This document shows positions 17,329-32,004 of a stretch of 64,000 nt of DNA, one piece after another. The position numbers and the translations under genes are program-made. This DNA comes from Chitinophaga sp. MM2321 (GTDB taxonomy: Bacteria > Bacteroidota > Bacteroidia > Chitinophagales > Chitinophagaceae). The DNA is taken from positions 6,357,001-6,421,000 of the forward strand of contig NZ_OZ035533.1 in NCBI RefSeq assembly GCF_964033635.1. Reading direction: 5' to 3'. Each line of letters begins with the position of its first letter. Positions within the stretch are counted from its first letter, which is position 1. The notes beneath the pieces were generated by a model. That model worked only from the letters and a program-made list of their open reading frames with translations. It had not been told where the DNA came from and ran no database searches.

Positions 17329-17537
17329 TAAAATTTAATTAATAAGCATTGCATCTTCGTTATCTATTTATTATCAATCTATTATACATATTTATTCAAC
17401 GTAATTCTATATAATTATAATATGATAATTTATTTAATATAATAACTTAGTTACCATAATCATGATTTCACGAACAATAATGCATCGTTCACGGAAATGA
17501 GAACAAGAACTAAAATCGGCGATATATCTTTGTTCTA

Positions 17538-17600
17538 GGTTTTTCATAGGATATGGTTAAAATTATTACAAGGGGGGTATTCTTACCACCCCTTTTTTTT
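17538..17600 (+). ncRNA. Putative small RNA, repeated element copy A
   Basis: The predicted transcript of about 63 nt starts at GG (17538). The conserved block GGTTTTTCATAGGATATGG (17538-17556) is followed by TTAAAATT. A hairpin at 17570-17594 has arms AAGGGGGGTA and TACCACCCCTT (one bulged A), loop TTCT and a run of eight T. Upstream, TATCTTTG (17525-17532) is a perfect -7 box five bases before the GG. ATCGTTCAC (17484-17492) lies 54 bases before it. The same arrangement recurs at three other sites. No known RNA family was recognised. Confidence 0.65.
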
Positions 17601-17956
17601 GTCCTTTCCCGTCGGTTTTTACTTATTCCCTTTTTTCCCGGTTATTCTTTTTCTCCTTTATCCGGGTTTTGAATAACACTCCTTTTTCGTTTACTGCACA
17701 TATCCGGATTTTAGACACGGTCAGTTTTCATCTTCCCCGACGGTTATTTTACTACTGGAACTGCTTAAAATGACTGTTTTTCACATATATCATTTATAAT
17801 CAGCACGTTATCTTTTTTATGACACATTATCATTAATCATGAAATGTTTTTGGGCCCTATACGTTAACCTTCCTTTTCGCTACGTTCCCTGTTTAAAATA
17901 CATCGTTCACTAAAATGTGACAACACTGTTTCCAAAAATAGGCCACCTTTGGTATA

Positions 17957-18020
17957 GGTTTTTCAATAAAGATATGGTTAAAATTTTTCGGGGCTGTAGT
18001 CTTGCAGCCCTGTTTTTTTT
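17957..18020 (+). ncRNA. Putative small RNA, repeated element copy B
   Basis: GGTTTTTCAATAAAGATATGG (first 20 bases from 17957 shown by position 17957-17977) is the shared block with a two-base insertion relative to copies A and D, then TTAAAATT. The hairpin GGGCTGTA-GTCT-TGCAGCCC (17991-18010) is followed by a T-rich tail. The stem sequence differs from copy A but remains paired. CACCTTTG (17944-17951), five bases before the GG, is the -7-like box. ATCGTTCAC (17902-17910) lies 55 bases upstream. Confidence 0.62.
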
Positions 18021-18139
18021 TCTACTACCCGAAGAACCATCTCCAGGTACAAATCCAACAAAAAGAAAAGTGAATAGCGAATAACGGAATTACATTGGAG
18101 ACGTATGTCGAATATGGTGTCCCTATACCTATAATATAA

Positions 18140-18186
18140 AAGGAAGAATTACGAATCAGGTTAATCCTGGTTCATAATTCTTCCTT
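18140..18186. terminator. Bidirectional hairpin before the dipeptidyl peptidase 3' end
   Basis: Arms of 21 bases (18140-18160 and 18166-18186) pair with one mismatch and one G-T pair around a short loop. It separates rightward transcription of element B from the leftward peptidase gene. Confidence 0.7.
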
Positions 18187-18203
18187 CTTCATTTCAGGGT
18201 ACT

Positions 18204-20351
18204 TTATTTCAGAAACTCCGCCGGATATGCCTTATCCAGCAGGTTATTGTAAATGAACCGGTATGTTTCACCGGCAGAATGCGCACTTTTTAAGCCTCCC
18301 CAACCGTGGCGCTCGCCAGGATAGAGCATCAGCTCAAAGTGTTTGTTAAGATTTTCCAGTTTGTCTACCAACTGAATACAGTGCTGCATATGTACATTAT
18401 CATCCATCGTACCGTGTACAATACGGATGAGGCCCTTATACTTGTCGGCATAAGTCATTACAGCGGTTGATCGGTAGCCTTCAGGGTTCTCTGCCGGCGT
18501 ATCCATGTAACGTTCTGTATAGTGGCTGTCATACAGTTTCCAGTCCGTAACGGCAAAGTTGGCCATGCCATGGGTGAATACTTCTGCCCCATAGGTGAGG
18601 GCCATACAAGTCATATATCCGCCAAAGCTGCCACCGGTCATACAGATCTTGCTGCTATCGGCCCAGGGCTGTGAACGGAGCCACCTGGCGGCGTCCATAT
18701 AATCTTCAATTTCATACTTCCCCATTTGCCGGTGGATGTAGTTCATCCCTGTTTTGCCCAGGTGCCCGCTGCTGCGGTTGTCGATCGCCACCTGGATCAC
18801 GCCTTCCTGTGCCCACCACTGTTGTACCAGGCTTTGTTTCCAGGTATCATAAACGGTTCCGGCATTAGGACCGCCATAAATGCTGATCAGGATAGGATAT
18901 TTTTTGCCGGGCTGCATATGCAGGGGCATAATGATGGTCATTGGTAATTCAAGACCATCACGGGTTTTGTAAGTTTTTAGCGCGGTTTTGGCCAGGTTGT
19001 ACTGCTCAAACCTGCTGCCTTTGCTGTCGCCCAGTTCACGTACCACCTTGCCATTATGATCCAGCAAAGCCATTTTAGCGGGTGTTTGCAGGTTGGAATA
19101 GGTAGTAATGAAGTATTTGCCGCCGGGCGCCATATTGATCACATGGTTATAAGGGCCGAAAGTAAGACGGGTGATCGCCCCTGTTTTCATACTAACCTTG
19201 TACAGATCAAAGCGCGTAGACGCTTCTTTGCGCGCTGTAAAGTAAATAACCTGGTTTTTTTCATCTGTCTGCAATACTTCTTTCACGGTCCAGTTGCCGG
19301 AGGTAAGCTGCTTTTTCAGGGAGCCATCCATATGATGGAGGTAGAGGTGCGACCAGCCTGTTCGATCGCTCTGCAACAGGAAACCCCGGCCATTTTGCAG
19401 GAAAGGAACTGCATCAAACCAGTCGATCCAGGTTTTCTGGTGCTCGTCATAGATTTCTTTTTTAACGCCGCTTTGCGGGTTAATGCTATATATTTTCAGG
19501 TTATCCTGTCCGCGGTTCATCCATTGCATCCACAGTTGCTTGCTATCGCTGGTCCAGAAAGGCATACCGAAATACTGGTCATCGTTTTCATTGAAATCGG
19601 CCCACACAGTGGCGCCACCTGCAACCGGTACTACACCCACTTTTACAGCCGGGTTAGGATCGCCGGCTTTGGGATAGCGGGTATTTTCCAGATAGCCATG
19701 CTGGCCTTTTTCGCTGTAGATCGGAAATACAGGCACTTTGGTATCATCAAAATGCATGTAGGCGATCTGACGGCTGTCCGGACTCCACCAGAAAGCGCGG
19801 TAATGCGTAGGACGGCCCAGGATTTCTTCATAATACACCCAGGAAGCCCAACCGTTGTATATCACATCGGTACCGTCGGTCGTGTAGCGGATCTCTTTTT
19901 TGGAAGCGATTTCAACACTGTAGAGGTCGTTGTTTCGGGTAAAGGCTACATATTTGCCATCGGGCGACAGCGTCGGATTTTTTTCGATAGCGGTATCGTT
20001 CGTCAGGCGGATGCTGTTGCCATCGGCATCTTTATAGAATACATCTTTTTCAAGAATACTTACACTGGGCCCGTCTACCGGTGCGGTATAAATAACAGCC
20101 TTACCGGTGCGGGCATTGATTTTCCAGGCTTGCATGCGGTCGGAAACCGGATCGGGACGCATTTCCAGGTAATGATCCGCATCGGTCCATTCCTTGATCA
20201 GCGGCAACGGTTTACTGATATGGGTGGGCTGTCCACGGAAAACCTGTTCAAATGTAAGATCCTGTTTTTCTTGTGCCCATAGTTGCGGCACCGTCAGCAG
20301 CAGCGCCGCGGCCGTTACGCAGATTGGTCTTAACCATTGTACACTTCTCAT
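18204..20351 (-). CDS. S9 family dipeptidyl peptidase IV-type protease
   Basis: 715 residues. The signal peptide ends near LWAQEK, so it is periplasmic or secreted. The N-terminal beta-propeller (DPPIV_N, about residues 90-430) precedes an alpha/beta hydrolase domain. The catalytic triad is visible: Ser575 in GGSFGGY, Asp in HGTMDDNVH (about residue 650) and His682 in GERHGW. The propeller motif YYEEILGRP carries the double glutamate that anchors the substrate N-terminus in DPP-IV, supporting removal of N-terminal X-Pro dipeptides. The gene stands alone. Confidence 0.93.
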   Translation of the reverse strand: MRSVQWLRPICVTAAALLLTVPQLWAQEKQDLTFEQVFRGQPTHISKPLPLIKEWTDADHYLEMRPDPVSDRMQAWKINARTGKAVIYTAPVDGPSVSILEKDVFYKDADGNSIRLTNDTAIEKNPTLSPDGKYVAFTRNNDLYSVEIASKKEIRYTTDGTDVIYNGWASWVYYEEILGRPTHYRAFWWSPDSRQIAYMHFDDTKVPVFPIYSEKGQHGYLENTRYPKAGDPNPAVKVGVVPVAGGATVWADFNENDDQYFGMPFWTSDSKQLWMQWMNRGQDNLKIYSINPQSGVKKEIYDEHQKTWIDWFDAVPFLQNGRGFLLQSDRTGWSHLYLHHMDGSLKKQLTSGNWTVKEVLQTDEKNQVIYFTARKEASTRFDLYKVSMKTGAITRLTFGPYNHVINMAPGGKYFITTYSNLQTPAKMALLDHNGKVVRELGDSKGSRFEQYNLAKTALKTYKTRDGLELPMTIIMPLHMQPGKKYPILISIYGGPNAGTVYDTWKQSLVQQWWAQEGVIQVAIDNRSSGHLGKTGMNYIHRQMGKYEIEDYMDAARWLRSQPWADSSKICMTGGSFGGYMTCMALTYGAEVFTHGMANFAVTDWKLYDSHYTERYMDTPAENPEGYRSTAVMTYADKYKGLIRIVHGTMDDNVHMQHCIQLVDKLENLNKHFELMLYPGERHGWGGLKSAHSAGETYRFIYNNLLDKAYPAEFLK

Positions 20352-20549
20352 AAGTTATAATCTCAGGTGTTTGTTGTTGACTGTTGGCGGGCGAAATTAA
20401 GCATAACTGAAAAAAAAGCAGGCAGAATTTCCATAAACGGAAGCGGCTACGAAACCGGTTTTAGGCGATTATCTACCAGATATGCAATAAATACCCTCGT
20501 CCTGTAAAACGCTATTATTTATAGCAGTGAAACAGGCTAACTTCATAAT

Positions 20550-20605
20550 GGTTTTCATAGGATATGGTCAAAAAATAAGAGGGTTGTAGTCTTACAACCC
20601 TTTTG
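20550..20605 (+). ncRNA. Putative small RNA, repeated element copy C
   Basis: GGTTTTCATAGGATATGGTC (20550-20569) is the shared block with one T fewer. The perfect 9-bp hairpin AGGGTTGTA-GTCT-TACAACCCT (20580-20601) is followed by TTTT. The -7-like box is weak (TAACTTCA, 20538-20545). The far-upstream ATCGTTCAC is only partly kept, near 20495. It lies between the divergent peptidase and lysS genes. The embedded ATG would give only MVKK then stop, arguing against a coding role. Confidence 0.6.
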
Positions 20606-20630
20606 CATGCAGATATTCCCCATAATCAGT

Positions 20631-20638
20631 TATTTTTG
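20631..20638 (+). promoter_or_regulatory. -7 element of lysS
   Basis: TATTTTTG is a perfect TAnnTTTG box 30 bases before the chosen lysS start and directly downstream of the copy C terminator. The nearest TTG (20603-20605) is 25 bases away, longer than usual. Confidence 0.5.
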
Positions 20639-20667
20639 CACTCCAATTGGCATTTACAACTAACTAC

Positions 20668-22176
20668 ATGACACAATTATCTGAGCAAGAGATTATACGC
20701 CGGGAAAAATTACAGGAGCTGCAAAACATGGGAATAGACCCCTATCCTGCAGCGGAGTACCCGGTTAATGATACTTCCGTTAACATAAAAACAAATTATT
20801 CGGAAGAAACAAAGGCGCAATTTCAGGAAGTATGCCTGGCTGGCCGAATCATGAGTGTACGTGATATGGGAAAGGCTGCATTTGCCGTTATACAGGACAA
20901 AGCAGGCCGTATCCAGATCTATATCCGCCGTGATGATATTTGCCCGGGAGAAGATAAATCCGGTTACGACACCGTTTTTAAGAAGCTGGTGGATATCGGC
21001 GACTTTATCGGGGTAAAAGGCTATGCCTTTATTACCAAAACAGGTGAAACCTCTATCCATGCTACAGAAATTACCATGCTGGCAAAAGCATTGCGCCCGC
21101 TGCCGGTAGTGAAGTCTGTAGAAGGACAGGTATTTGACGAAGTAACAGATCCTGAATTTAAATACCGTCAGCGTTATGTAGACCTGGTGATTAACCCGGA
21201 AGTGAGAGAGGTGTTCATCAAGCGCACCAAAATCATGCAAACCATCCGCGACTTTTATAACCACCTGGGCTACCTGGAAGTGGAAACACCTATCCTGCAA
21301 CCTATTCCCGGTGGCGCAACTGCGCGGCCATTTACTACGCATCATAACGCGCTGGACATGCCGCTGTATCTTCGGGTAGCCAACGAGTTATACCTGAAAC
21401 GCCTGATTGTTGGCGGTTTTGAAGGGGTATACGAATTTGCAAAAGATTTCCGTAATGAAGGGATGGACCGTACCCATAATCCGGAATTTACCGTAATGGA
21501 AATGTATGCCGCCTACAAGGATTATGAGTGGATGATGCGTACTACCGAAACATTGCTGGAAAAAATAGCCCTTACATTACACAACACCACGGAAGTACAG
21601 GTGGGTGATAAAGTGATCGACTTTAAAGCGCCTTTCCGCCGTGTGACCATGTTTGAAGCAATCCAGGAACATACCGGTGTTGATATTGCCGCTATGGATG
21701 AAGCACAGCTGCGCGAGGTGTGTAAGCAACTGGGTATTCACGTAGATCCGAAATTTGGTAAAGGCAAACTGATAGATGAAATTTTTGGCGAGAAATGTGA
21801 AGGCCATTATATCCAGCCTACTTTTATTACCGATTACCCGGTAGAAATGAGCCCGCTGACAAAGAAACACCGCAGCAAAGCTGGCCTGGTAGAACGTTTT
21901 GAGCTGATGGTGAATGGTAAGGAAATTGCCAACGCCTATAGTGAACTGAACGATCCTATTGATCAGCGTGAACGTTTTGAAGAGCAGGTGCAACTGATGG
22001 AACGTGGCGATGATGAGGCCATGTATATTGATTACGATTTCTTACGTGCCCTGGAATATGGTATGCCGCCTACCTCTGGTATTGGTATTGGGATCGACCG
22101 CTTAACAATGCTGATGACCAACCAACCGTCCATCCAGGATGTACTGTTCTTCCCGCAGATGAAGCAGGAGAAATAG
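20668..22176 (+). CDS. lysS: Lysyl-tRNA synthetase, class II
   Basis: 502 residues from ATG 20668; the TTG at 20647 would add seven residues and is less likely. The N-terminal OB-fold anticodon-binding domain (about 55-165, [23 protein letters not shown]) is followed by the class II catalytic core. Motif 2 is [15 protein letters not shown] and motif 3 is [14 protein letters not shown]. The internal [14 protein letters not shown] region is lysine-specific. Length and domain order match bacterial LysS. It charges tRNA-Lys. Confidence 0.96.
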
Positions 22177-22201
22177 ATTTTATTTTATACAGATTTTTAT
22201 A

Positions 22202-22243
22202 AATAACAAAGCAGCAAGGTGTTTTCCTTTGCTGCTTTGTTAT
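22202..22243 (+). terminator. Terminator hairpin after lysS
   Basis: AATAACAAAGCAGCAA (22202-22217) pairs with TTGCTGCTTTGTTATT, ending at 22243. The stem is 16 bp and A/T-rich at its base, so it may work in both directions. Confidence 0.8.
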
Positions 22244-22348
22244 TTACAGCCTTTCCGGCCGGTAAAACTTTGCCTGAAATAATCGCTCATTTACCGTTTC
22301 ACATCGTTAACTTTAAGTAGTGCTTCATTGTATCTTAAAATTAGCCAC

Positions 22349-23182
22349 ATGAAAACGATCTTAGTCCCCACTGATTTTTCTGATACCGCATATAACGCCG
22401 CCACTTATGCATTGGCGTTAGCGCCACAGCTGGGCGTAGCCCGCATTGTACTTTACCATGCGTATGAGCTGATCGTTCCCATCCCGGATGTACCTACCGT
22501 AGTGCCGATGGTAAATCCGGATGATCTGAGAGACGCCAGCCTGGAAGGTCTGGAAAAGATGAAAAAAGAACTGACTGCGTTGCTCTCTCCCGGCCTTACT
22601 ATTGTAACCCGGGCCGATAATACCCTGTTGGCCGCCACTATCGATGATGTATGCCGCCAGGAAGAAGCAGATATGATTATAATGGGTATCACCGGTGGCA
22701 GCAAGATGGAAGAAATCCTGGTTGGCTCCAACACTATTGATGTAGTAAAACATACCAGTTGCCCGGTATTCGTGGTTCCTGGTGCCGCAAAATATAAACC
22801 CATCCAGAAAATAGTATTTGCCTGCGATCTGCGCAAAGTGGCTGATACTACGCCGGTAGCACCCCTCAAAAGGTTGCTGTCTGTTTTTAAAGCCGAGCTG
22901 CATGTAATCAATATTGATCATGAAAGCCGGCACTTTACAACAGATACCCCTTTCGAAACACTGATGCTGGATACTTTACTGGAAGATTATCAACCTGAAT
23001 ATCATTTCATTGATAATCCTAATATTGTACAGGGGATTGTAGAATTTGCAGAAAGTATTCATGCCGATCTCATCCTTACCATTCCAAAAAAACACGGATT
23101 GTTCGAAAGTATCTTCAAACGGAGCCATACTTCAAAGCTGGCCTATCAAACCCATATACCTTTGCTCACAATACACGAATAA
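22349..23182 (+). CDS. Tandem universal stress protein
   Basis: 277 residues with two UspA-like domains. The first (1-145) starts MKTILVPTDFSDTAYNAATYAL and ends with the nucleotide-binding pattern GITGGSKMEEILVGSNTIDVVKHTSCPVFVVP, matching the GX2GX9GS ATP-binding signature. The second (about 150-277) is more degenerate, ending SKLAYQTHIPLLTI. The start at 22349 is preferred to a TTG at 22328 because it matches the family. Tandem Usp proteins are common in Bacteroidota and their targets are not predictable. Confidence 0.9.
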   Translation: MKTILVPTDFSDTAYNAATYALALAPQLGVARIVLYHAYELIVPIPDVPTVVPMVNPDDLRDASLEGLEKMKKELTALLSPGLTIVTRADNTLLAATIDDVCRQEEADMIIMGITGGSKMEEILVGSNTIDVVKHTSCPVFVVPGAAKYKPIQKIVFACDLRKVADTTPVAPLKRLLSVFKAELHVINIDHESRHFTTDTPFETLMLDTLLEDYQPEYHFIDNPNIVQGIVEFAESIHADLILTIPKKHGLFESIFKRSHTSKLAYQTHIPLLTIHE

Positions 23183-23221
23183 TTTATACTTTTGATACAT
23201 ATTAATATTCATTTTAACGCT

Positions 23222-23965
23222 ATGCTGAAAAGAACAATGTTGGTACTGCTGGGTGTATTTTGCTTACAGGCCAGCCAGGCGCAGTTCCTGAAAAAACTGG
23301 GTGACAAACTTGGCACTAAAACGACGACTACTTCCGGAACAACTGCTACCGGCACAAATATTACAGAATCAGAAGCTGGTTCTGCTATTAAAGAGGCATT
23401 ATCAAAAGGGGTAACCGCAGGTATTGCCAAACTGAATAAAACAGACGGTTTTTTTGGTAGTGATATCTACAAATTATTATTGCCGCCGGATGCCGTGAAA
23501 ATTGGTAACACGCTCCGCTCCATAGGTTTGGGTAGCCAGGTGGATAAAGCTATCCTGCAAATAAACCGTTCTGCTGAAAAGGCAATGGGTTATGCAGCAC
23601 CTATCTTTGTAAATGCCATCAAACAAATGACGCTGACAGATGCATTGAACCTTGTAAAAGGGGGTAATAATTCGGCTACAGAATTTTTCAAAAGTAAAAC
23701 CACAGATCAGCTGAAATCCGCTTTTTCGCCTGTGGTGAAGAAATCACTGGATAGTACCAGCGCCACCCGTTATTATACTGATATCGTAACTACCTACAAT
23801 AAACTGCCAACTTCTTTTAACAAGGTAAATCCTGATTTGCAGGATTACGTAACCACCATGGCTGTAACCGCGCTGTTTGACCAGATCGGTAAAGAAGAAG
23901 CCGCCATCCGCGCCAACCCTGCCGCGAGAACAACGGACTTATTGAAGAAGGTTTTCGGTAAATAA
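23222..23965 (+). CDS. DUF4197 domain protein, exported
   Basis: 247 residues from ATG 23222, with a signal peptide ending near QASQAQ. A Thr-rich linker follows, then a DUF4197 domain covering most of the mature protein, with GLGSQVDKAILQINRSAEKA and ITEQEA-like regular helices. The function of DUF4197 is unknown; proteins of this family are periplasmic. The stop codon is followed at once by a 51-bp inverted repeat. Confidence 0.83.
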   Translation: MLKRTMLVLLGVFCLQASQAQFLKKLGDKLGTKTTTTSGTTATGTNITESEAGSAIKEALSKGVTAGIAKLNKTDGFFGSDIYKLLLPPDAVKIGNTLRSIGLGSQVDKAILQINRSAEKAMGYAAPIFVNAIKQMTLTDALNLVKGGNNSATEFFKSKTTDQLKSAFSPVVKKSLDSTSATRYYTDIVTTYNKLPTSFNKVNPDLQDYVTTMAVTALFDQIGKEEAAIRANPAARTTDLLKKVFGK

Positions 23966-24077
23966 TTTAGGGATTTTTTGATTTACGAATTTAGGAATTT
24001 GAAATGCAGCGAAGATTATTGCGTAGATCTTCGCTGCATTTCAAATTCCTAAATTCGTAAATCAAAAAATCCCTAAA
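23966..24077. repeat. Perfect 51-bp inverted repeat between convergent genes
   Basis: The arms 23966-24016 and 24027-24077 are exact reverse complements with a ten-base loop. The left arm starts on the base after the DUF4197 stop codon. The right arm ends two bases inside the reading frame end of the opposing flavin reductase, covering its stop. It can act as a terminator in both directions. Confidence 0.9.
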
Positions 24078-24951
24078 TACTCAGTAGTACCTGCCACGCT
24101 GCATCCACCTTTCCTTCGTCCAGCAGTTTTTTTGCATGATAGTGTAGTTCCTGCTCCATTTCTGCCGGGGTAATGCTATAATACTGGATAATATTTTTGA
24201 GATGATCATCCTGGTAAGATGGATCTATAAACGGGATGCTGTTTACATTGCCCAGTTGCCCGAGGTTATTACCGCTGAGGATATGACTGTTGCGGATAGC
24301 TAACGGTAAGGCATCTACGCCGATGCCCAGGCTGGTATTAGGCTTGGGTACTTCAAATACGGCGTTGCCGGAAGCGCGGCAATAGTAGTCGCCGCCCATG
24401 CGGGCTACGAGGTCAATTTTATGCGGATCTATTTTACCGTTGCTGTCGAGGATACTTTCATCGATATGCAGCATTACTACCTCGCAAATTACCAGGTTGC
24501 CGGCGCCGCCGCCCTGTCCGGTTGCTATAATCTCCTTTACCACACATTCCAGTTGCACCGGGCTCTCTTTTACCCGGAAAGGTTTTACTTTTTCAGATGG
24601 CAGCGCAGTAAATCCTGCTTTCTCAAATTCATTCACCCCTGCCGGGTATTCGCAGCTGGCCAGCGAGATTTGCTGTACCATGCTATAGCTTACCACATTG
24701 ATCACCACTTCGCGGGTAGCCGATACATTTTCCAGCGTATGCTTGGTTGTATTATCACGCACCCTGCGGGAAGGTGAAAAGATCAGCGTAGGCGGGTTGG
24801 AACCGAATACATTAAAGAAACTGAAGGGCGACAAATTAGGCCGGCCATCCCGATCCATTGTACTGGCAAAGCAAATAGGCCGCGGCGCGATGGCGCCCAG
24901 CAGATAAGCATGCAGCTCGCTGGTCTTTATTTCTGTAGGATTCACCTGCAT
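24073..24951 (-). CDS. Flavin reductase-like FMN-binding split-barrel protein
   Basis: 292 residues. The N-terminal half (about 10-190) is a flavin reductase-like domain, with the FMN-binding pattern PRPICFASTMDRDGRPNLSPFSFFNVFGSNPPTLIFSPS. The C-terminal 100 residues are specific to this Bacteroidota subgroup and include YYCRASGNAVFEVPKP. It starts two bases after the FAH-family gene ends, so the two form one transcript. Together they suggest a catabolic step on an aromatic or keto acid, but no substrate can be assigned. Confidence 0.88.
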   Translation of the reverse strand: MQVNPTEIKTSELHAYLLGAIAPRPICFASTMDRDGRPNLSPFSFFNVFGSNPPTLIFSPSRRVRDNTTKHTLENVSATREVVINVVSYSMVQQISLASCEYPAGVNEFEKAGFTALPSEKVKPFRVKESPVQLECVVKEIIATGQGGGAGNLVICEVVMLHIDESILDSNGKIDPHKIDLVARMGGDYYCRASGNAVFEVPKPNTSLGIGVDALPLAIRNSHILSGNNLGQLGNVNSIPFIDPSYQDDHLKNIIQYYSITPAEMEQELHYHAKKLLDEGKVDAAWQVLLSI

Positions 24952-24953
24952 GA

Positions 24954-25967
24954 CTATACGTTTTTCCTGAGCGCCAGTATGGAGAAGTCGGAATCCTCTT
25001 TAATAATTGTATTGGTGAGGGTACCCAGTCCTTCTACTTCCATTTCTACCACATCGCCGGGTTGCAGCCATTGTTCAGTATAATTAGCGTCATTGCTTTT
25101 GCCGGTGCCGTTTAGTTCCAGGAAGCAGCCGGTACCTACGGTGCCACTGCCTATAATGTCGCCGGGAAGGATGTTTACGCCATATGCGCAGCGTTCTACA
25201 ATTTCGGCAAAGGTCCAGTCCATATCACCCATATTGCCTTCACTTACCTGGATGCCATTGACCTTACAGGTCATTTTCAATTGAAAGGCGTTGCCGGTAT
25301 GACCGGGTTTAGCCGGAATTTTAAAGGCGTCCAGTTCATCTGCTGTTACCAGCATTGGGCCGATAACCGTGCTGAAATCTTTTCCCTTGGCAGGTCCCAG
25401 GTTGAGCTTCATTTCTTCCAATTGAAGGGTACGTGCGCTCAGATCGTTCATGATCATGTAACCGCCTATGTAGTCATCAGCTTCTGCTGCGGTAATATTG
25501 CGCCCGGGTTTACAGATGACAATAGCTGTTTCCAGTTCAAAGTCCAGTTTTTCGAAATGGTCGGGCATGCAGCTAACATCGCCGGGACCTTGTATAGCAT
25601 TGTGGTTGGTGAAATAAAAGATAGGGTACTGATCAAACTCGGGGATCATATCTGCTTTACGGTTGCGCCTTGCTGCAGCCACATGTTGCCGGAAAGCGTA
25701 ACCATCGCGGCAGGAGGTAGGGAATGGTACAGGAGATAATATCTGCACGCTTTCTACAGGAATGCCATTGGCAGAACCAGGATGCTTGCCGGCTTTGAGG
25801 CTTTCATCTGCATGTTTGGCAATGTCAATCACATCTTCCCACATCATTAAAAACATACCCATATTGTTGGGTAATTCCGGATGCAACTCCTGTGTATTAT
25901 ACAACAGTCCAGCTACTAAAATCGCCAGCTGGTCTGTTTCTTCTCTTAAATAACTTACAAGTTTCAT
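24954..25967 (-). CDS. Fumarylacetoacetate hydrolase family protein
   Basis: 337 residues with a C-terminal FAH fold. The metal-binding acidic residues are in DFELETAIVI and GYMIMNDLSAR, followed by KGKDFSTVIGPMLV. The GTVGTGCFLELNGTG motif and the ending WLQPGDVVEMEVEGLGTLTN are typical. Such enzymes cleave C-C bonds in 2-keto acids such as fumarylpyruvate or acylpyruvates. Pairing with the downstream flavin reductase is frequent in Bacteroidota. The true substrate is unknown. Confidence 0.88.
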   Translation of the reverse strand: MKLVSYLREETDQLAILVAGLLYNTQELHPELPNNMGMFLMMWEDVIDIAKHADESLKAGKHPGSANGIPVESVQILSPVPFPTSCRDGYAFRQHVAAARRNRKADMIPEFDQYPIFYFTNHNAIQGPGDVSCMPDHFEKLDFELETAIVICKPGRNITAAEADDYIGGYMIMNDLSARTLQLEEMKLNLGPAKGKDFSTVIGPMLVTADELDAFKIPAKPGHTGNAFQLKMTCKVNGIQVSEGNMGDMDWTFAEIVERCAYGVNILPGDIIGSGTVGTGCFLELNGTGKSNDANYTEQWLQPGDVVEMEVEGLGTLTNTIIKEDSDFSILALRKNV

Positions 25968-26081
25968 AGTTTCGTTATTGTGGCTGATGTATGAATGGCC
26001 AAATATAAGAATGGCGCGCTGAATATGCAGATTTATTGAATAAAAGCGATGTGAAAAGGTGGGAAAGACATGAATAGCCGG

Positions 26082-26100
26082 CTAAATATTTTATATTTAG
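26082..26100. promoter_or_regulatory. 19-bp palindrome upstream of the serine hydrolase
   Basis: CTAAATAT-TTT-ATATTTAG is a perfect palindrome 18 bases before the ATG at 26119, in the 151-base divergent region shared with the FAH gene. It could be an operator or a short hairpin. No regulator gene is adjacent. Confidence 0.45.
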
Positions 26101-26118
26101 AAAACAGAACCGCCTCCT

Positions 26119-27366
26119 ATGCGTTATTGTTTGATACTGCTCTTTTGCTGCTGCCAGATATATGGATTGCAGGCCCAGTCGCGCACAGATACCCTTTTAC
26201 GGAACCTGATCAGTCGGGAGGCTTCTCCGGCACTGAAACACATACTTCAGTATCCGGATTCTTTCAGGTATCAGTTGATCTACACACAGATCGACCGGGA
26301 TGCGCACAATCAGCCGCATTTTAAGCATTATTACCTGGACGTGGATGCTGATAAGTATTTCAATCCCGCCAGCACCGTGAAGCTGCCAGTTGCGTTGCTG
26401 GCACTGGAGAAACTGAAGGAACTGAAAGCAGAGGGAATTACCGGCAATACCCCCATGCTGACAGACAGTAGCTGGAGCGGGCAGGTTACCGTGCATACAG
26501 ATAGTACTGCGGAGAACGGGTTGCCATCTATCTATCACTATATTAAAAGAATATTTCTCATCAGCGATAATGATGCTTACAACCGCCTGTATGAATTTGT
26601 GGGACAACAGACGATTCATGAAAAGCTGTGGGATAAAGGTTATAAAAGGGCTCGCATCGTACGCCGTTTTATGCCGCTCTCAGAAGAAGAAAACCGGCAT
26701 ACCAACGCCATCCGGTTTGAAGACAACGGGAAAAGTATTTACGCACAACCGCCGGCGTATAGCACACTGGCCTTTGATTACAGCAAAAAGATAACAATGG
26801 GAACGGCGTACATGGATAAAAATGATAAGCTGGTACCGCTTCCGATGGACTTTACACGGCAAAACAACCTGCCGCTGGAAGACCTGCAACAGCTGTTGCA
26901 GTCGGTATTGTTCCCGGCTTCCGTACCTGCTTCCCGGCGTTTTAATATTACGGAAGATGACTACCGGTTTTTATACCGGTATATGTCGCAATACCCGTCA
27001 GAAACAACGTATCCAAAATATGACACAACAGAATATTTTGACAGTTATACAAAATTTTTTCTCTTCAAAGGTGCAGGGCACAACATTCCACCCTACATGC
27101 GTGTATTTAATAAAACGGGCTGGTCATACGGATTCCTGACTGATGCAGCCTATATTGTTGATTTTAAACACAATGTTGAATTTATGCTCACCGGTACGAT
27201 TTATGTAAACCGCGACGGCATTTTGAATGATGATAAATATGAATATGAAGAGGATGGGTATCCGTTTTTTAAGGAAATTGGAAAAATAATTTATGGGTAT
27301 GAATTACAGCGTCAAAGAGCCCATAACCCCGACCTTAGCCAGTTTAGGATAGATTATACGAAGTAG
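26119..27366 (+). CDS. Exported serine hydrolase, class A beta-lactamase fold
   Basis: 415 residues with a signal peptide ending near GLQAQ. The three active-site motifs of class A beta-lactamases and related peptidases are in order: Ser85-x-x-Lys88 (STVK), SDN at 149-151 and KTG at 332-334. The protein is about 130 residues longer than a class A beta-lactamase, mainly between SDN and KTG. It is therefore better called a serine hydrolase related to that family than a resistance enzyme; a peptidoglycan or peptide substrate is possible. Confidence 0.85.
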   Translation: MRYCLILLFCCCQIYGLQAQSRTDTLLRNLISREASPALKHILQYPDSFRYQLIYTQIDRDAHNQPHFKHYYLDVDADKYFNPASTVKLPVALLALEKLKELKAEGITGNTPMLTDSSWSGQVTVHTDSTAENGLPSIYHYIKRIFLISDNDAYNRLYEFVGQQTIHEKLWDKGYKRARIVRRFMPLSEEENRHTNAIRFEDNGKSIYAQPPAYSTLAFDYSKKITMGTAYMDKNDKLVPLPMDFTRQNNLPLEDLQQLLQSVLFPASVPASRRFNITEDDYRFLYRYMSQYPSETTYPKYDTTEYFDSYTKFFLFKGAGHNIPPYMRVFNKTGWSYGFLTDAAYIVDFKHNVEFMLTGTIYVNRDGILNDDKYEYEEDGYPFFKEIGKIIYGYELQRQRAHNPDLSQFRIDYTK

Positions 27367-27546
27367 TTTTTCTGGGATAGAAATTATTTATGAGGATATA
27401 AAATAGTAAAATATTCCAATCAGAACGAACATTGTATTTTTATTGTAGGAAGTGTCAGAAATTTAAAATTGTGCATAATTTTTGATACACGCTGCCAGGA
27501 TGATATAAGGAAGGTTTTATTCATTTTCCCGTAACTACACTAAATC

Positions 27547-28212
27547 ATGGGAGTCATGAAGTTTGAAAAGATTAAGAACAAAGGACAGGCAAGATTATTT
27601 GAAAGTCAGTACCTGGAGATGCTAACCAAAACGCATCCACTGATTATCTGGGGTTTATATTTACCCATCATCGGTTATATGCTTTATTATAGCCACACTT
27701 CACTGGGCTTTTCGCTGGAAATGGTAGCCCTGGTATTTTTTGGCGCCATGTTATTCTGGTCGTTCTTTGAATACCTGATGCACCGGTTTTTATTCCACTT
27801 TGCGAGTGACCGCCCCAGGATTCAACGATTTATTTATGTGATGCATGGTAATCACCATGAATATCCGCGCGACAAACAACGTTTGTTTATGCCGCCGATA
27901 CCCAGCCTTGTACTGGCATCTGCCATTTTCGGGTTGCAGTATATTTTCCTGCGGCAGTTTACATTTATGTTTTTCCCCGGATTCATGTTAGGATACCTCA
28001 TTTATGGCAGCATGCACTATGCTATCCATGCCTGGAATCCGCCGTTTAAATTTATGAAACCTATCTGGCGGAATCACCACCTGCACCACTATAAGAGTGA
28101 GGACAAAGGGTTTGGTGTAAGCACCGCTGTATGGGATAAGGTATTCGGTACTTTCTTCGACCTGGAAAAGGAAAAAGAAGACAAGGAGAAAGTGAAGGAG
28201 CTAACGTTTTAA
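27547..28212 (+). CDS. Fatty acid hydroxylase / sterol desaturase family protein
   Basis: 221 residues with about four membrane helices. The diiron-binding histidine clusters are HRFLFH, HGNHHEYPRD, HYAIH and NHHLHHYKSEDKGFGVS. The FEYLMHRFLFHF and FGVSTAVWDKVFGT context is closest to fatty acid 2-hydroxylases acting on sphingolipids. Chitinophagaceae make sphingolipids, so 2-hydroxylation of ceramide acyl chains is the likeliest role. No cytochrome b5 domain is fused. It stands alone in orientation. Confidence 0.87.
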   Translation: MGVMKFEKIKNKGQARLFESQYLEMLTKTHPLIIWGLYLPIIGYMLYYSHTSLGFSLEMVALVFFGAMLFWSFFEYLMHRFLFHFASDRPRIQRFIYVMHGNHHEYPRDKQRLFMPPIPSLVLASAIFGLQYIFLRQFTFMFFPGFMLGYLIYGSMHYAIHAWNPPFKFMKPIWRNHHLHHYKSEDKGFGVSTAVWDKVFGTFFDLEKEKEDKEKVKELTF

Positions 28213-28216
28213 AGAT

Positions 28217-28561
28217 TTACCATTTTTCCTCGTCATCCGGCAGGTCGTCTCTTTTCAATGCTGCACGGGAGGCTATTTTCTGCAGCTGTCTTTCAATGAT
28301 CAGGGCTGCTATTGGTTTATAAGGGTCTGTACCGGATGCTGCTGCTTCCTCCAGGATCGCTTTCACTTTCTTTTCAGCAATATCTATCCGGTACAGGATA
28401 AAAATGAATTGGTGGAAGTCTTTACTGATCAGTAATTCTAATCTTTCCGCCAGCATTTCTTCCAGCAATTCATAACTAACGTTAAGGGGAACACGTACTT
28501 CAAAGGTCTGCTGTGCCCAGACAGCTGTTTCCTGTAAGTATTGTGCAGGAAATGAAGTCAT
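28217..28561 (-). CDS. Hypothetical protein, conserved-looking helical
   Basis: 114 residues, soluble, with mainly helical character and acidic ends (DDLPDDEEKW). I do not recognise a family. Its ATG overlaps the stop of the upstream DUF6263 gene (TAATG, one shared base), indicating translational coupling and a real gene. The segment ELLISKDFHQFIFILYRIDIAEKKV resembles small Bacteroidota proteins without assigned role. Confidence 0.7.
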   Translation of the reverse strand: MTSFPAQYLQETAVWAQQTFEVRVPLNVSYELLEEMLAERLELLISKDFHQFIFILYRIDIAEKKVKAILEEAAASGTDPYKPIAALIIERQLQKIASRAALKRDDLPDDEEKW

Positions 28562-29508
28562 TACTTCATTTGTTTTATTTTGTAAGAAGCGTTGGTAACC
28601 ACTTTAATGGGGACTTTCAGGTCCTTTCTGATCTTTTTGGCCTTATCGGCTTTATAGGTATAGTTACCATTCATCTCCGTGGTTTGTACGCATATGCTGG
28701 GGAGGCCGGTGCTGCGTTCTACCAGGTAATTGGAAGAAGTGCTACCGCTGATTTCTGCGGTTGCTTTAATGCCATCTTCCAGGGTCAGCATCTGCACTTT
28801 ATCAGTCTTTATTTTAGAGGTACCGCCAATTTTAGCCGTTTGTGTATCCCAGGTTTGCAGGTTCCAGTACAGGTCTATACTGCCTATCAATCCGCCGCGC
28901 ATGGGCACATTTTCTTCCCATTGCGTACCGGTTTTGATACCGTGTGCAGGGTACATAATCAGCAATTGTTCCAGCCAGCTGCGGAAGGCGTCTGTTCCAA
29001 ACTGGTCTTTCATCAGTTTCATATAGGCTTCCTGTTCATTTTTTTTCAATGCGCTGAAAGCAGCGGCTGCATTGTCAAGGATGTTATCTAGTCCGTCTAC
29101 TTTATTAACGATACCGGTAGATTGTATTTCTACGGTAAAGGGTTTGTCCAGTATATTTTTGAGGCCGGCCTGAAATGGTTCTTTGTCGTTGGCTACTTTG
29201 GCATCAACAAAAATATTCTGGTTTTTGGCGTTGAAGTTAAATTTCAACTCCTTATAACGGAAGGTAAGAATAGTTTTACCGGGATTGACTTCTGTCGCTT
29301 CTATACTAATGATGTTATTATAATCACGGGTAGTACGTTGCACCACATCATTTACGGTCATATAGGTTTCGCTGCGGCTTTTCTGCTCCATTTCAAACTG
29401 TTGTCCCTTAGCGAAGGTATAGTTCATCGCCATATACTCCTGAGCCTTGGTAGTAACAGTGAGTGCTACCAGCATTGTAATCAGTCCCAAAAATCTTTTC
29501 ATTACCAT
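28561..29508 (-). CDS. DUF6263 family exported protein
   Basis: 315 residues with a signal peptide (MKRFLGLITMLVALTVTTKAQ; start at Met1 or Met3). The mature part is beta-rich, and repeated short strands such as KTILTFRYKELKFNFNAK and GIKTGTQWEENVPM fit a large lipoprotein-like beta fold of unknown function. It is the first gene of a pair with the small hypothetical protein and lies 11 bases after the TIGR02757 gene terminus on the other side, with no obvious link. Confidence 0.72.
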   Translation of the reverse strand: MVMKRFLGLITMLVALTVTTKAQEYMAMNYTFAKGQQFEMEQKSRSETYMTVNDVVQRTTRDYNNIISIEATEVNPGKTILTFRYKELKFNFNAKNQNIFVDAKVANDKEPFQAGLKNILDKPFTVEIQSTGIVNKVDGLDNILDNAAAAFSALKKNEQEAYMKLMKDQFGTDAFRSWLEQLLIMYPAHGIKTGTQWEENVPMRGGLIGSIDLYWNLQTWDTQTAKIGGTSKIKTDKVQMLTLEDGIKATAEISGSTSSNYLVERSTGLPSICVQTTEMNGNYTYKADKAKKIRKDLKVPIKVVTNASYKIKQMK

Positions 29509-29519
29509 TATTTAATTGA

Positions 29520-30293
29520 TCAAACATATTTTTCTATCACGCCAAGGCCAAACAGTGCAAAGTCATACTTTGCAGGGTCATCGGGATCCAGTTTTTTCAG
29601 CTCATGGGTCAGCGTTGTGGCTGTTTTCCAATCCGCTTTGGGATCCGTTACCAGGCCCAGTCTGGCAGCTACCCTGCTCACATGAACATCCATGGGGCAA
29701 ACCAGCTGCGAGGGTGATATGTGTTGCCACAGCCCAAAATCCACGCCATTTTCATCTTTTCTTACCATCCAGCGCAAATACATATTGAGTCGCTTGCAGG
29801 CAGAGTGTTTGGCGGGTGTGGAAATATGCTTGCGTGTTCTTTCCGGATGTTCCAGTGCAAAGAATACTTTGTTGAATCCGATGAGCGCGTTTTCCACGTT
29901 CTCGTCTTCCGGTGTAATATGCGCACTGAAAGCAAATTCCAGCGATGTTACATTGGTGTAATAGTGCTGGAGGAATTCCACAAAATACAACAGGTCCAGT
30001 CCATTAAAGGTACGGTGGGTGAAAGACATGAGCTTCATGCGATCCCTGGGTTCATGATGACGGATAAAATCATAGGGCGCATTATCCATCATTTGCATCA
30101 GTTCAGTACATTTATTGATGATGCTGGTGCGGTTCCCCCACGCCATTATAGCCGCAAAAAAGCCAGCTATCTCAATATCCTGCAACCTGCTGTATTGGTG
30201 CGGTATAGAAATAGGATCATTGGCAATAAAGTCCGGGTGATTGTAGTACGCGGCCTTAGCATCCAGGAAATCCTTCAGTTGTTGGATCTTCAT
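29520..30293 (-). CDS. TIGR02757 (DUF2400) family protein
   Basis: 257 residues. The N-terminus LKDFLDAKAAYYNHPDFIANDPISIPHQ and AAIMAWGNRTSIINK are the clear family signatures, and the C-terminal helix-rich part resembles the HhH-GPD DNA glycosylase fold without an established catalytic role. Family length is normal. CPMDVHVSRVAARLGL is also typical. Confidence 0.85.
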   Translation of the reverse strand: MKIQQLKDFLDAKAAYYNHPDFIANDPISIPHQYSRLQDIEIAGFFAAIMAWGNRTSIINKCTELMQMMDNAPYDFIRHHEPRDRMKLMSFTHRTFNGLDLLYFVEFLQHYYTNVTSLEFAFSAHITPEDENVENALIGFNKVFFALEHPERTRKHISTPAKHSACKRLNMYLRWMVRKDENGVDFGLWQHISPSQLVCPMDVHVSRVAARLGLVTDPKADWKTATTLTHELKKLDPDDPAKYDFALFGLGVIEKYV

Positions 30294-30487
30294 ATATAGT
30301 TAGTCACATGTAATTCCGGCAGTCCGGCTGTACACCACAACTATCTGTTAAAATTACCAGTGGCGTTTTAGCAGATGGCTGGGGTATGGCCTGATAAAAA
30401 GACTGTGGATATGGTTTTCGTAAAATAAATATGTAAGTAAAGATAATTTTTAACACGTAACATTTAAAATCTACTTTATTCCGGCTT

Positions 30488-31627
30488 TTATCCAATGGCG
30501 TTATTCAGATCTTCTGTCAGGTCGCCGGCATCTTCAATACCCACGCTCAGGCGGATGAGGGAATCGGCCAATCCGTTTTTGATCCTGTCTTCACGGGGTA
30601 TGGAAGCATGCGTCATGCTGGCCGGATGGCCTATCAGCGATTCTACCCCGCCCAATGATTCTGCCAGGGAAAACAGGTGTGTATTGCTCAGGACGCGGTT
30701 GGCAGCTTCCAGGTTATCATCTTTCAATGTAAAAGAGAGCATGCCACCGAAGCCGCGCATTTGCCTTTTGGCAATATCGTGGTTAGGATGATCGGTAAAG
30801 CCGGGCCAGTATACTTTGTCTACTTTGGAGTGGTTGCGCAGGAAATGGGCGATTACTTCCCCGTTTTCGCAATGGCGCTGCATGCGTACATGCAGGGTTT
30901 TGATGCCGCGCAATACCAGGAAGCAATCTTGTGGCCCCGGAACGGCGCCGCAGCTGTTTTGTATAAAATAGAGCTGTTGGGCCAGTGCTTCATTCTTAAC
31001 AATGATAGCGCCATGTACCACATCACTGTGGCCGCCCAGGTATTTGGTCGCGGAATGCAGCACTATGTCAGCGCCCAGGTCCAGCGGATTTTGCAGATAA
31101 GGGGAGGCAAAGGTGTTATCCACGCACAACAGGAGCTCGCTTTTCCTGGCAATCTGAGCGCAGGCAGCGATATCTATGATGTTCAGCAATGGGTTGGTGG
31201 GTGTTTCCAGCCAAAGCATTTTTGTTTGCGGGGTGATATGGGCCTCGATGTTTTTGGCGTCCTGCATCCCTATAAAGGTGAATTTGATGCCATAACGCTC
31301 AAAAATCTTTGTGAAAATGCGGTAGGTTCCTCCGTAAAGGTCGTTTGTGGCAATTACTTCATCGCCGGGGTTCAAGAGCTTCATCACGGCGTCTGTTGCT
31401 GCCAGTCCGCTGCCAAAAGAGATGCCATGGGTGCCGTTTTCAATGGCTGCCAGGGCGTTCTGAAGGGCATCGCGGGTGGGGTTCTGCGTGCGCGCATACT
31501 CATATCCTTTATGTACGCCGGGTGCGCTCTGCACATAGGTAGATGTCTGGAAAATAGGCGTCATTATGGCCCCCGTAGATGGATCGGGAGCTACACCTGC
31601 GTGTATGAGTTTAGTACCCAGCTTCAT
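30488..31627 (-). CDS. metB: Cystathionine gamma-synthase (PLP-dependent)
   Basis: 379 residues of the Cys/Met metabolism PLP family. The PLP-binding lysine is Lys195 in [12 protein letters not shown]. The phosphate-binding SGLAATDA and the Tyr-containing [15 protein letters not shown] are present. The ending [14 protein letters not shown] is typical. The enzyme joins an activated homoserine to cysteine. Cystathionine gamma-lyase shares all these motifs, so synthase versus lyase is not settled by sequence; I favour the synthase from overall similarity. Confidence 0.88.
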
Positions 31628-31864
31628 ATCTTAAATATTTATAATGAACAATTTTCTGGTAATTTTTCAAAGATACTTTAGATTTTGACACGCCGGGAGG
31701 GTTGGAAAGGATAAGATACATTTCCCGGCCTCCCACCCTCAAAATTGTCAATTTTAGCTCGGGCGTATTTATTTATCGTCTTATTTGGTACGATAACGAA
31801 CGATTTTATATCGTTCACCAAATCGTAGGTAACGGATATGCATATTCGGAGTAGATTCGTTTTA

Positions 31865-31925
31865 GGTTTTTCATAGGATATGGTTAAAATTCTTAAGGCG
31901 GTATTCTTACCGCCTTTCTCTTTTG
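31865..31925 (+). ncRNA. Putative small RNA, repeated element copy D
   Basis: The block GGTTTTTCATAGGATATGG (31865-31883) is identical to copy A. TTAAAATT follows, then the perfect 9-bp hairpin AAGGCGGTA-TTCT-TACCGCCTT (31895-31916) and a T-rich tail. The -7-like box is TAGATTCG (31852-31859), five bases before the GG. ATCGTTCAC (31810-31818), 55 bases upstream, is itself the right arm of a perfect hairpin with GAACGAT (31798-31804). It is convergent with the DUF2911 gene, from which a 25-bp inverted repeat separates it. Confidence 0.65.
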
Positions 31926-31949
31926 TCTAAATTGAAGCTTTATAAATAG

Positions 31950-32004
31950 CAAAGTCCGCAAAGATTTTTTTTAATCATTTTAAAAAAAATCTTTGCGGAC
32001 TTTG
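31950..32004. repeat. Perfect 25-bp inverted repeat
   Basis: Arms 31950-31974 and 31980-32004 are exact reverse complements around a five-base loop, with CTTTGCGGACTTTG in the right arm. It lies between small RNA copy D and the convergent DUF2911 gene and can terminate from both sides. Confidence 0.85.

Follow-up and report, generated by a model that had tools for sequence, protein, structure and literature searches.

A FopS-like, multi-copy small RNA gene family predicted in Chitinophaga and other Chitinophagaceae

Four small RNA-like elements in the window

The window, meaning the whole stretch of 64,000 nucleotides from Chitinophaga sp. MM2321 that was analysed, carries four copies of a short element, each consisting of a near-fixed 5′ leader (GGUUUUUCAUAGGAUAU...) followed by a hairpin:

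17538..17602, plus strand: sRNA copy 1, type A; leader 17538-17562, hairpin 17570-17594 with one bulged A, then a T-run
17957..18023, plus strand: sRNA copy 2, type B, with leader CAATAAAGATATGG; hairpin 17989-18012, then a T-run
20550..20607, plus strand: sRNA copy 3, type C, GGTTTTCATAGGATATGGTCAAAA; hairpin 20576-20605
31865..31928, plus strand: sRNA copy 4, type A; hairpin 31895-31916, then a T-rich end

The original prediction had placed copies at 17538, 17957, 20550 and 31865, all on the plus strand, and each was located there. The leader that it described as shared, with small variations, was also recovered: a search for TTTTCANAGGATATGGTNAAAA with up to three mismatches gave three matches in the window and none in each of 100 shuffles, and the leader of copy 2 is a variant of the near-fixed form. 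The neighbouring genes are unrelated, as had been stated, and encode a tRNA-binding-domain protein, a DPP IV-type peptidase, LysRS, a Cys/Met PLP enzyme and a DUF2911 protein. About 60 bases downstream of copy 3 comes the ATG (20668) taken as the start of lysS. Directly 3′ of copy 4, at about 31950-32004, there is a long inverted repeat (AAAGTCCGCAAAGATTTTTTT...) that is probably a bidirectional terminator. By every sequence test made, the four elements belong to a real, unannotated, multi-copy sRNA gene family.

Pairing and covariation of the hairpin

The hairpins of copies 2, 3 and 4 pair as described, but that of copy 1 does so around its bulged A. The stems do pair, and in the wider set they do not always differ between copies, since GGCGGTATTCTTACCGCC-like stems recur in many of them. 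The loop is TTCT or GTCT as claimed, but the TA..TA letters said to flank it belong to the stem, and the T-run that follows the hairpin is reduced in copy 3 to only four T after the stem.

Covariation in a larger alignment, which had been proposed as a check, was found in 89 distinct hairpins, whose rows are related paralogues and orthologues, so that their count is not one of independent events. Paired cells made up 95.4% of 801 compared with 80.9 (sd 0.7) in the shuffles, double changes were present in 9 of 9 stem pairs, and cells with both sides changed numbered 95 against 21.5 in the shuffles. None of 500 shuffles equalled the real set on any of five measures, and sliding of the stem partners abolished the signal. 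The hairpins were extracted ungapped around the loop, and the mis-anchored rows L021:1747, L032:1741 and L089:6507, together with L057, which had no anchor, were dropped before the count. Because the anchoring demanded TC in the loop, the invariance of the loop in this alignment is by construction, and the loop statistics were therefore drawn from folding of the 208 unique elements, in which the loop with its closing pair reads AUUCUU in 125 and AGUCUU in 38.

Promoter boxes and upstream direct repeats

The following features were found upstream of the four copies:

17465..17495, plus strand: LytTR-like direct repeat with a 21-bp period, copy 1; 2 mismatches to the pattern
17525..17532, plus strand: TATCTTTG, −7-type promoter box of copy 1; exact match
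17883..17913, plus strand: LytTR-like direct repeat with a 21-bp period, copy 2; 2 mismatches
17944..17951, plus strand: CACCTTTG, −7-type promoter box of copy 2; one mismatch
20521..20529, plus strand: ATAGCAGTG, upstream of copy 3
20538..20545, plus strand: TAACTTCA, weak −7-type promoter box of copy 3; two mismatches
31791..31821, plus strand: LytTR-like direct repeat with a 21-bp period, copy 4; 2 mismatches
31852..31859, plus strand: TAGATTCG, −7-type promoter box of copy 4; one mismatch

A box resembling TAnnTTTG sits 4-5 bases upstream of the window copies. Among 253 distinct upstreams, mostly from Chitinophaga and taken from 257 rows (208 unique elements) that still include L082 (two rows), L083 and L118, the box is exact in 144 and within one mismatch in 240; in 235 of these 240 it ends 3-5 bases before the GG. 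These rows of L082, L083 and L118 were excluded from the counts on diverse upstreams, on upstreams from other genera and on hairpins. In the other genera, 21 of 41 distinct upstreams come within one mismatch of TAnnTTTG, and because just these fit, other promoter types probably serve copies there.

Farther upstream, in a diverse set of 82 upstreams that are at most 60% alike, a CGTT(C/T)AC-like site occurs in 59, at −50 to −54 in 58 of them, while mononucleotide shuffles gave a mean of 6.4 and a maximum of 13. Both repeats, near −73 and −52, are present in 49 of the 82 and exactly 21 bp apart in 45 of these 49, compared with a mean of 0.49 and a maximum of 3 in 200 mononucleotide shuffles. Type C upstreams, which in the window are linked to lysS, have both repeats in 3 of 18 cases. 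In the organism's own genome, 7 of the 11 doublets with at most two mismatches, and 4 of the 5 with at most one, lie at promoters of these sRNAs; the reversed doublet pattern gives 10 matches there at up to two mismatches, so that single doublet sites are not specific. LytTR regulators are described as binding a pair of 9-bp direct repeats that are separated by 12 bp and placed some 10 bp ahead of the −35 box (PMC6193735). Many Chitinophaga copies have in common with such promoters a repeat pair with a 21-bp period, the distance to −35/−33 being judged by position only, and the doublet is likely a LytTR-type activator site, which we regard as putative.

Letters resembling ATAGCAGT recur near −30 before type C copies, which mostly lack the direct repeats. 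In other genera, GCAACGTTT..GGTCT or CGTTATA letters, and elsewhere an ATACC..GGTATTG inverted repeat, stand in place of the LytTR-like doublet (second copies of L357 and L359; first copies of L353, L357, L359 and L341; L354, L362, L369 and L370). We take the GCAACGTTT..GGTCT letters to be ECF-sigma-like. These copies would represent the same RNA under possibly different control.

Copies in the own genome and in the genus

Two models were used, R1 built from the four window copies and R2 from 26 diverse copies. The prediction of a four-copy family holds for the window, but the genome contains more, with 9 matches to R1 and 11 to R2. Of the latter, 6548923 is divergent, and 304049, which has no leader, is probably only a terminator. 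Four promoter-RNA units stand about 236 bp apart in a tandem array. Two divergent single copies were noted: the one just named, G000:C1:6548923 (L336), with GGGTTTTCATAGGATAGTAAC..., and 4101072 (L011), with GGTTTTTCAAAGGATATGG... and a CTCC loop. The search for further copies in related genomes, proposed as a check, gave 4-18 R1 matches in each of 25 genus genomes, the own genome included. All four copies, read by hand, keep their relative places in 9 of the 25 (G000, G002, G011, G016, G018, G019, G020, G022 and G023), at offsets of 0, 0.25-0.42, 2.7-3.3 and 13.9-16.0 kb; in the remaining genomes only some of the four were present among the matches listed.

The arrangement of the copies bears on two other readings. 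The elements might be cis-acting terminators or attenuators for the flanking genes, with copy 3 perhaps serving as a lysS leader, which would agree with the terminator shape of all copies and with the short distance from copy 3 to lysS. We consider this improbable: the neighbours in the window are unrelated, a promoter box lies directly upstream of the copies, the arrays contain several complete promoter-RNA units, and the interval from copy 3 to lysS holds a separate TATTTTTG box (20631-20638). Dispersal as a REP- or MITE-like mobile repeat with no RNA function would account for the multiple copies and for the tandem array, but it is hardly credible in view of the retention of orthologous positions across 9 of the 25 genomes, the compensatory changes, and the conservation of the promoter box and upstream repeats; a 60-base query, which is a weak test, also found no match on plasmids. 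Both the mobile repeat and the lysS leader were rejected.

Distribution across Chitinophagaceae and beyond

The narrow model R1 matched 11 of 195 genomes of the family and none of 15 genomes from other families. R2 matched 317 of 394 family genomes and 92 of 101 genera, of which about 90 genomes, by hand count, do not get below E 1e-6 and are to be held loosely, because outside the family R2 also matched 34 of 386 genomes at E 4e-6 to 1e-3. The outside matches, the best at E 4e-6 and many covering the hairpin end only, were rejected as members. A cleaner, model-free count is provided by the exact 17-base leader GGTTTTTCATAGGATAT, which occurs in 126 of 181 sampled family genomes and 71 of 101 genera, with the reversed control at 0 in every row. 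In a sample of the class it was found in 3 of 183 genomes, all three of them Chitinophagaceae, and in 0 of 179 outside the family. In named records the leader occurs in at least 117 stretches; among the 80 matches listed, 73 are titled Chitinophaga, two Thermoflavifilum and two [Flexibacter] sp. ATCC 35208, and there is one bin each of Flavihumibacter, Bacteroidetes and Eremiobacterota. It is from these titles that the family scanned, f1, was taken to be Chitinophagaceae. The stretch labelled Eremiobacterota (L083) has no hairpin and was rejected as a member.

In the other genera the leader mostly reads GGTTTTTCATAGGATATTGGAT... and is followed by a hairpin with a similar loop form, and R2 found from one paralogue per genome upward. 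A coding peptide was rejected, as the AUG of the Chitinophaga leader is absent from these leaders. No described sRNA family for Chitinophaga or Chitinophagaceae was found in the open-access literature searched. The element would thereby be a regulatory RNA with a broad distribution in a large family of soil bacteria that degrade polysaccharides.

Copies on phage stretches

The exact leader is present in 22 viral stretches, of which 13 represent one coding start and nine look sRNA-like by eye, with six distinct sequences (L420, L421, L422, L424, L425, L431, L432, L433 and L434). Five of the nine score as members with hairpins of their own, at R2 values of 52.8 bits (L434), 48.7 (L424), 36.6 (L422 and L425) and 34.9 (L431). 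The membership of the other four (L420, L421, L432 and L433) is doubtful, their 21-22 bits being no better than those of the coding start L417 (20.9). Among the phage contexts are baseplate proteins for L424, which comes from a contig of 236 kb, a terminase for L431, a replicative helicase for L422, an exonuclease for L434 and an integrase for L421. These copies suggest that phages may use this RNA.

The remaining 13 stretches, all short (L417-L419, L423, L426-L430 and L435-L438) were rejected as sRNAs: there the 17-mer, on the other strand, is the start region of one small-protein gene (AATATCCTATGAAAAACC...). This match probably arose by chance, and it illustrates the likeness of the leader to a mirrored translation start.

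Candidate targets and proposed mechanism

The complement of the leader contains AUGAAAAAC. In 546 of the organism's own genes, with first-ATG rather than annotated starts from 12% of the genome, the gain of the leader at start codons over the flanks was better than that of 118 of 120 shuffles, and the FopS leader showed this more so. In the first duplex test, a shuffle that retained GGUUUUUCAU scored practically as well as the leader. The 17-mer complement was not enriched in register with start codons, as 9 of 556 genes had at least 12 matches against 9.5 expected when the upstream part was shuffled, and type B leaders, which have no CAU, showed no start-codon dip. A single antisense near-match, with 3 mismatches among its 20 specified bases, lies as we read it at the start of a secreted-protein-like gene; matches of that quality also arise by chance, two having been found in the control. 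The 50 of 56 susC starts that were tested did no better than other genes (p 0.63), and the FopS leader likewise showed no preference for the susC starts of this genome (p 0.74); preferential susC targeting was rejected. As a separate observation in the own genome (L187-L216, L277-L296), AACCAA occurs within 60 bases before the start of 17 of 50 susC genes compared with 27 of 556 others, and is perhaps a susC 5′-leader motif of its own.

On balance we lean modestly toward the reading that every copy is a separate gene encoding a trans-acting, FopS-like sRNA of about 60-65 nt that represses translation by pairing of its leader at mRNA start codons. Transcription from the promoter would begin at the GG or immediately ahead of it and would stop at the hairpin with its U-run. 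The hairpin would serve termination and stability, for which mainly the pairing and the loop would be kept, while the active part would be the 5′ leader, whose complement reads ...AUAUCCUAUGAAAAACC. By likeness to FopS, we infer that it pairs with mRNAs around their start codons, and translation would be repressed, perhaps together with an RRM protein. With copies of one RNA behind different promoters, many of them in Chitinophaga behind the LytTR-type direct repeat, several signals could raise one shared RNA.

The leader might instead be kept as a protein-binding decoy that docks an RRM or other RNA-binding protein, the many copies titrating it with no mRNA pairing. Identity over 17 leader bases in 71 of 101 genera is more than a short seed needs, the complementarity of the leader to start codons is weak, and two RRM genes are present in the own genome. 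The Chitinophaga leader can also fold a weak hairpin, CAUA-GGA-UAUG, with GGA in the loop. In Bacteroides thetaiotaomicron, the part of FopS to which RbpB is reported to crosslink is the 5′ portion; however, FopS, a binder of RbpB, is there also described as pairing with a susC mRNA (PMC11697453). The GGA hairpin was not seen in L338, the sole member from another genus that was folded, and the FopS-A leader has no GGA. We regard the decoy as rather unlikely. Its CsrA-type form was rejected, as the GGA loop was not seen in L338 or in FopS; Bacteroidota are not known to have CsrA.

Comparison with FopS and other known systems

The candidate mRNA-pairing sRNA resembles FopS, a family of paralogous Bacteroides sRNAs that controls sugar uptake in gut Bacteroides, as far as the available part of the source describes it (PMC11697453). 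The original prediction held that no named family fits. No Rfam family passes its curated threshold in the window, but the resemblance to FopS (RF04319) had been missed, and the prediction also did not include the broader distribution, the tandem array, the direct repeats upstream or the copies on phages. RF04319 aligns end to end, below threshold, with window copy 1 (E 0.047 for 101 bases) and with L048 (E 0.02), and the gathering score of 56 bits was not reached by window copy 1 (23.7), L048 (25.7) or L045 (26.3). For copy 1, RF04319 gave the highest bit score, and a partial match to another family had a smaller E (0.0044). Scores of 24-26 bits mean little alone, because the best RF04319 score in L014 (30.9) fell at an unrelated place. 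In eight loci from other genera RF04319 had no match at E up to 1, and it was over threshold in 5 of 198 genomes of the class, none of them Chitinophagaceae.

The leaders were compared in four combinations. That of the other genera matched the FopS-A leader in 20 of the 21 positions aligned, one 2-base gap being needed, which 1 of 20,000 dinucleotide shuffles equalled; with FopS-G, 46 of 20,000 were as good, and for the Chitinophaga leader the numbers were 44 (A) and 1218 (G) of 20,000. The aligned form is GTTTTTCATAG(GA)TATT[A/G]GATTT, and the FopS leader holds both TATTAGATTT, as in the other genera here, and GGTTAA, as in Chitinophaga. Both RNAs are multi-copy, with a single-stranded 5′ leader carrying GUUUUUCAU near its 5′ end, one terminator hairpin and a Bacteroidota-type promoter. 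A phage copy of FopS has been reported (PMC11697453), and the Chitinophagaceae family is likewise found on phage stretches. The hairpin and loop of FopS, however, differ from those of the Chitinophagaceae RNA, which in contrast to FopS has LytTR-like upstream repeats and tandem arrays. FopS is described as pairing with a susC mRNA (PMC11697453); the leader of the present family showed no special match to the susC starts of the own genome. A promoter-plus-leader pattern matched 167 of 395 genomes of the class, largely as background; the FopS-type form is concentrated by eye in four families (f49, f73, f82 and f93) that appear Bacteroidaceae-like, and G271, G704 and G719 have four matches each. 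No convincing members were found in the sampled families between the FopS hosts and Chitinophagaceae.

Common descent of FopS and the Chitinophagaceae RNA is likely, and convergence on a start-codon seed is a possible alternative. More tentatively, and with less than even confidence, we propose one ancient Bacteroidota RNA whose leader would have stayed nearly unchanged since before the orders split. Its promoters would have been rewired repeatedly, with LytTR-type doublets, other inverted repeats and possibly ECF-type boxes, and phages would have acquired copies, fitted with new hairpins, in order to exploit this regulation in the hosts that they infect. Our confidence in this proposal and in the start-codon mechanism was lowered because only 21 of 41 upstreams from other genera fit the box, one FopS score fell outside the element, and membership is doubtful for four of the phage copies.

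Two further systems are likened to the Chitinophagaceae RNA by description alone. GibS, a Bacteroides sRNA related to FopS, has in common with it the seed R1, carries an upstream promoter motif (PM2), and differs by a second seed, R2 (PMC11697453). The sibling sRNAs LhrC1-5 of Listeria, which belongs to another phylum, are also multi-copy and are described in the accessible part of their source as induced through the response regulator LisR (PMC5880928). Beside these, the present family provides a covariance model, a candidate seed, a likely type of activator and a wider frame for FopS: the kind of RNA is known and FopS-like, the variant is new, and its function is the one we infer from that likeness.
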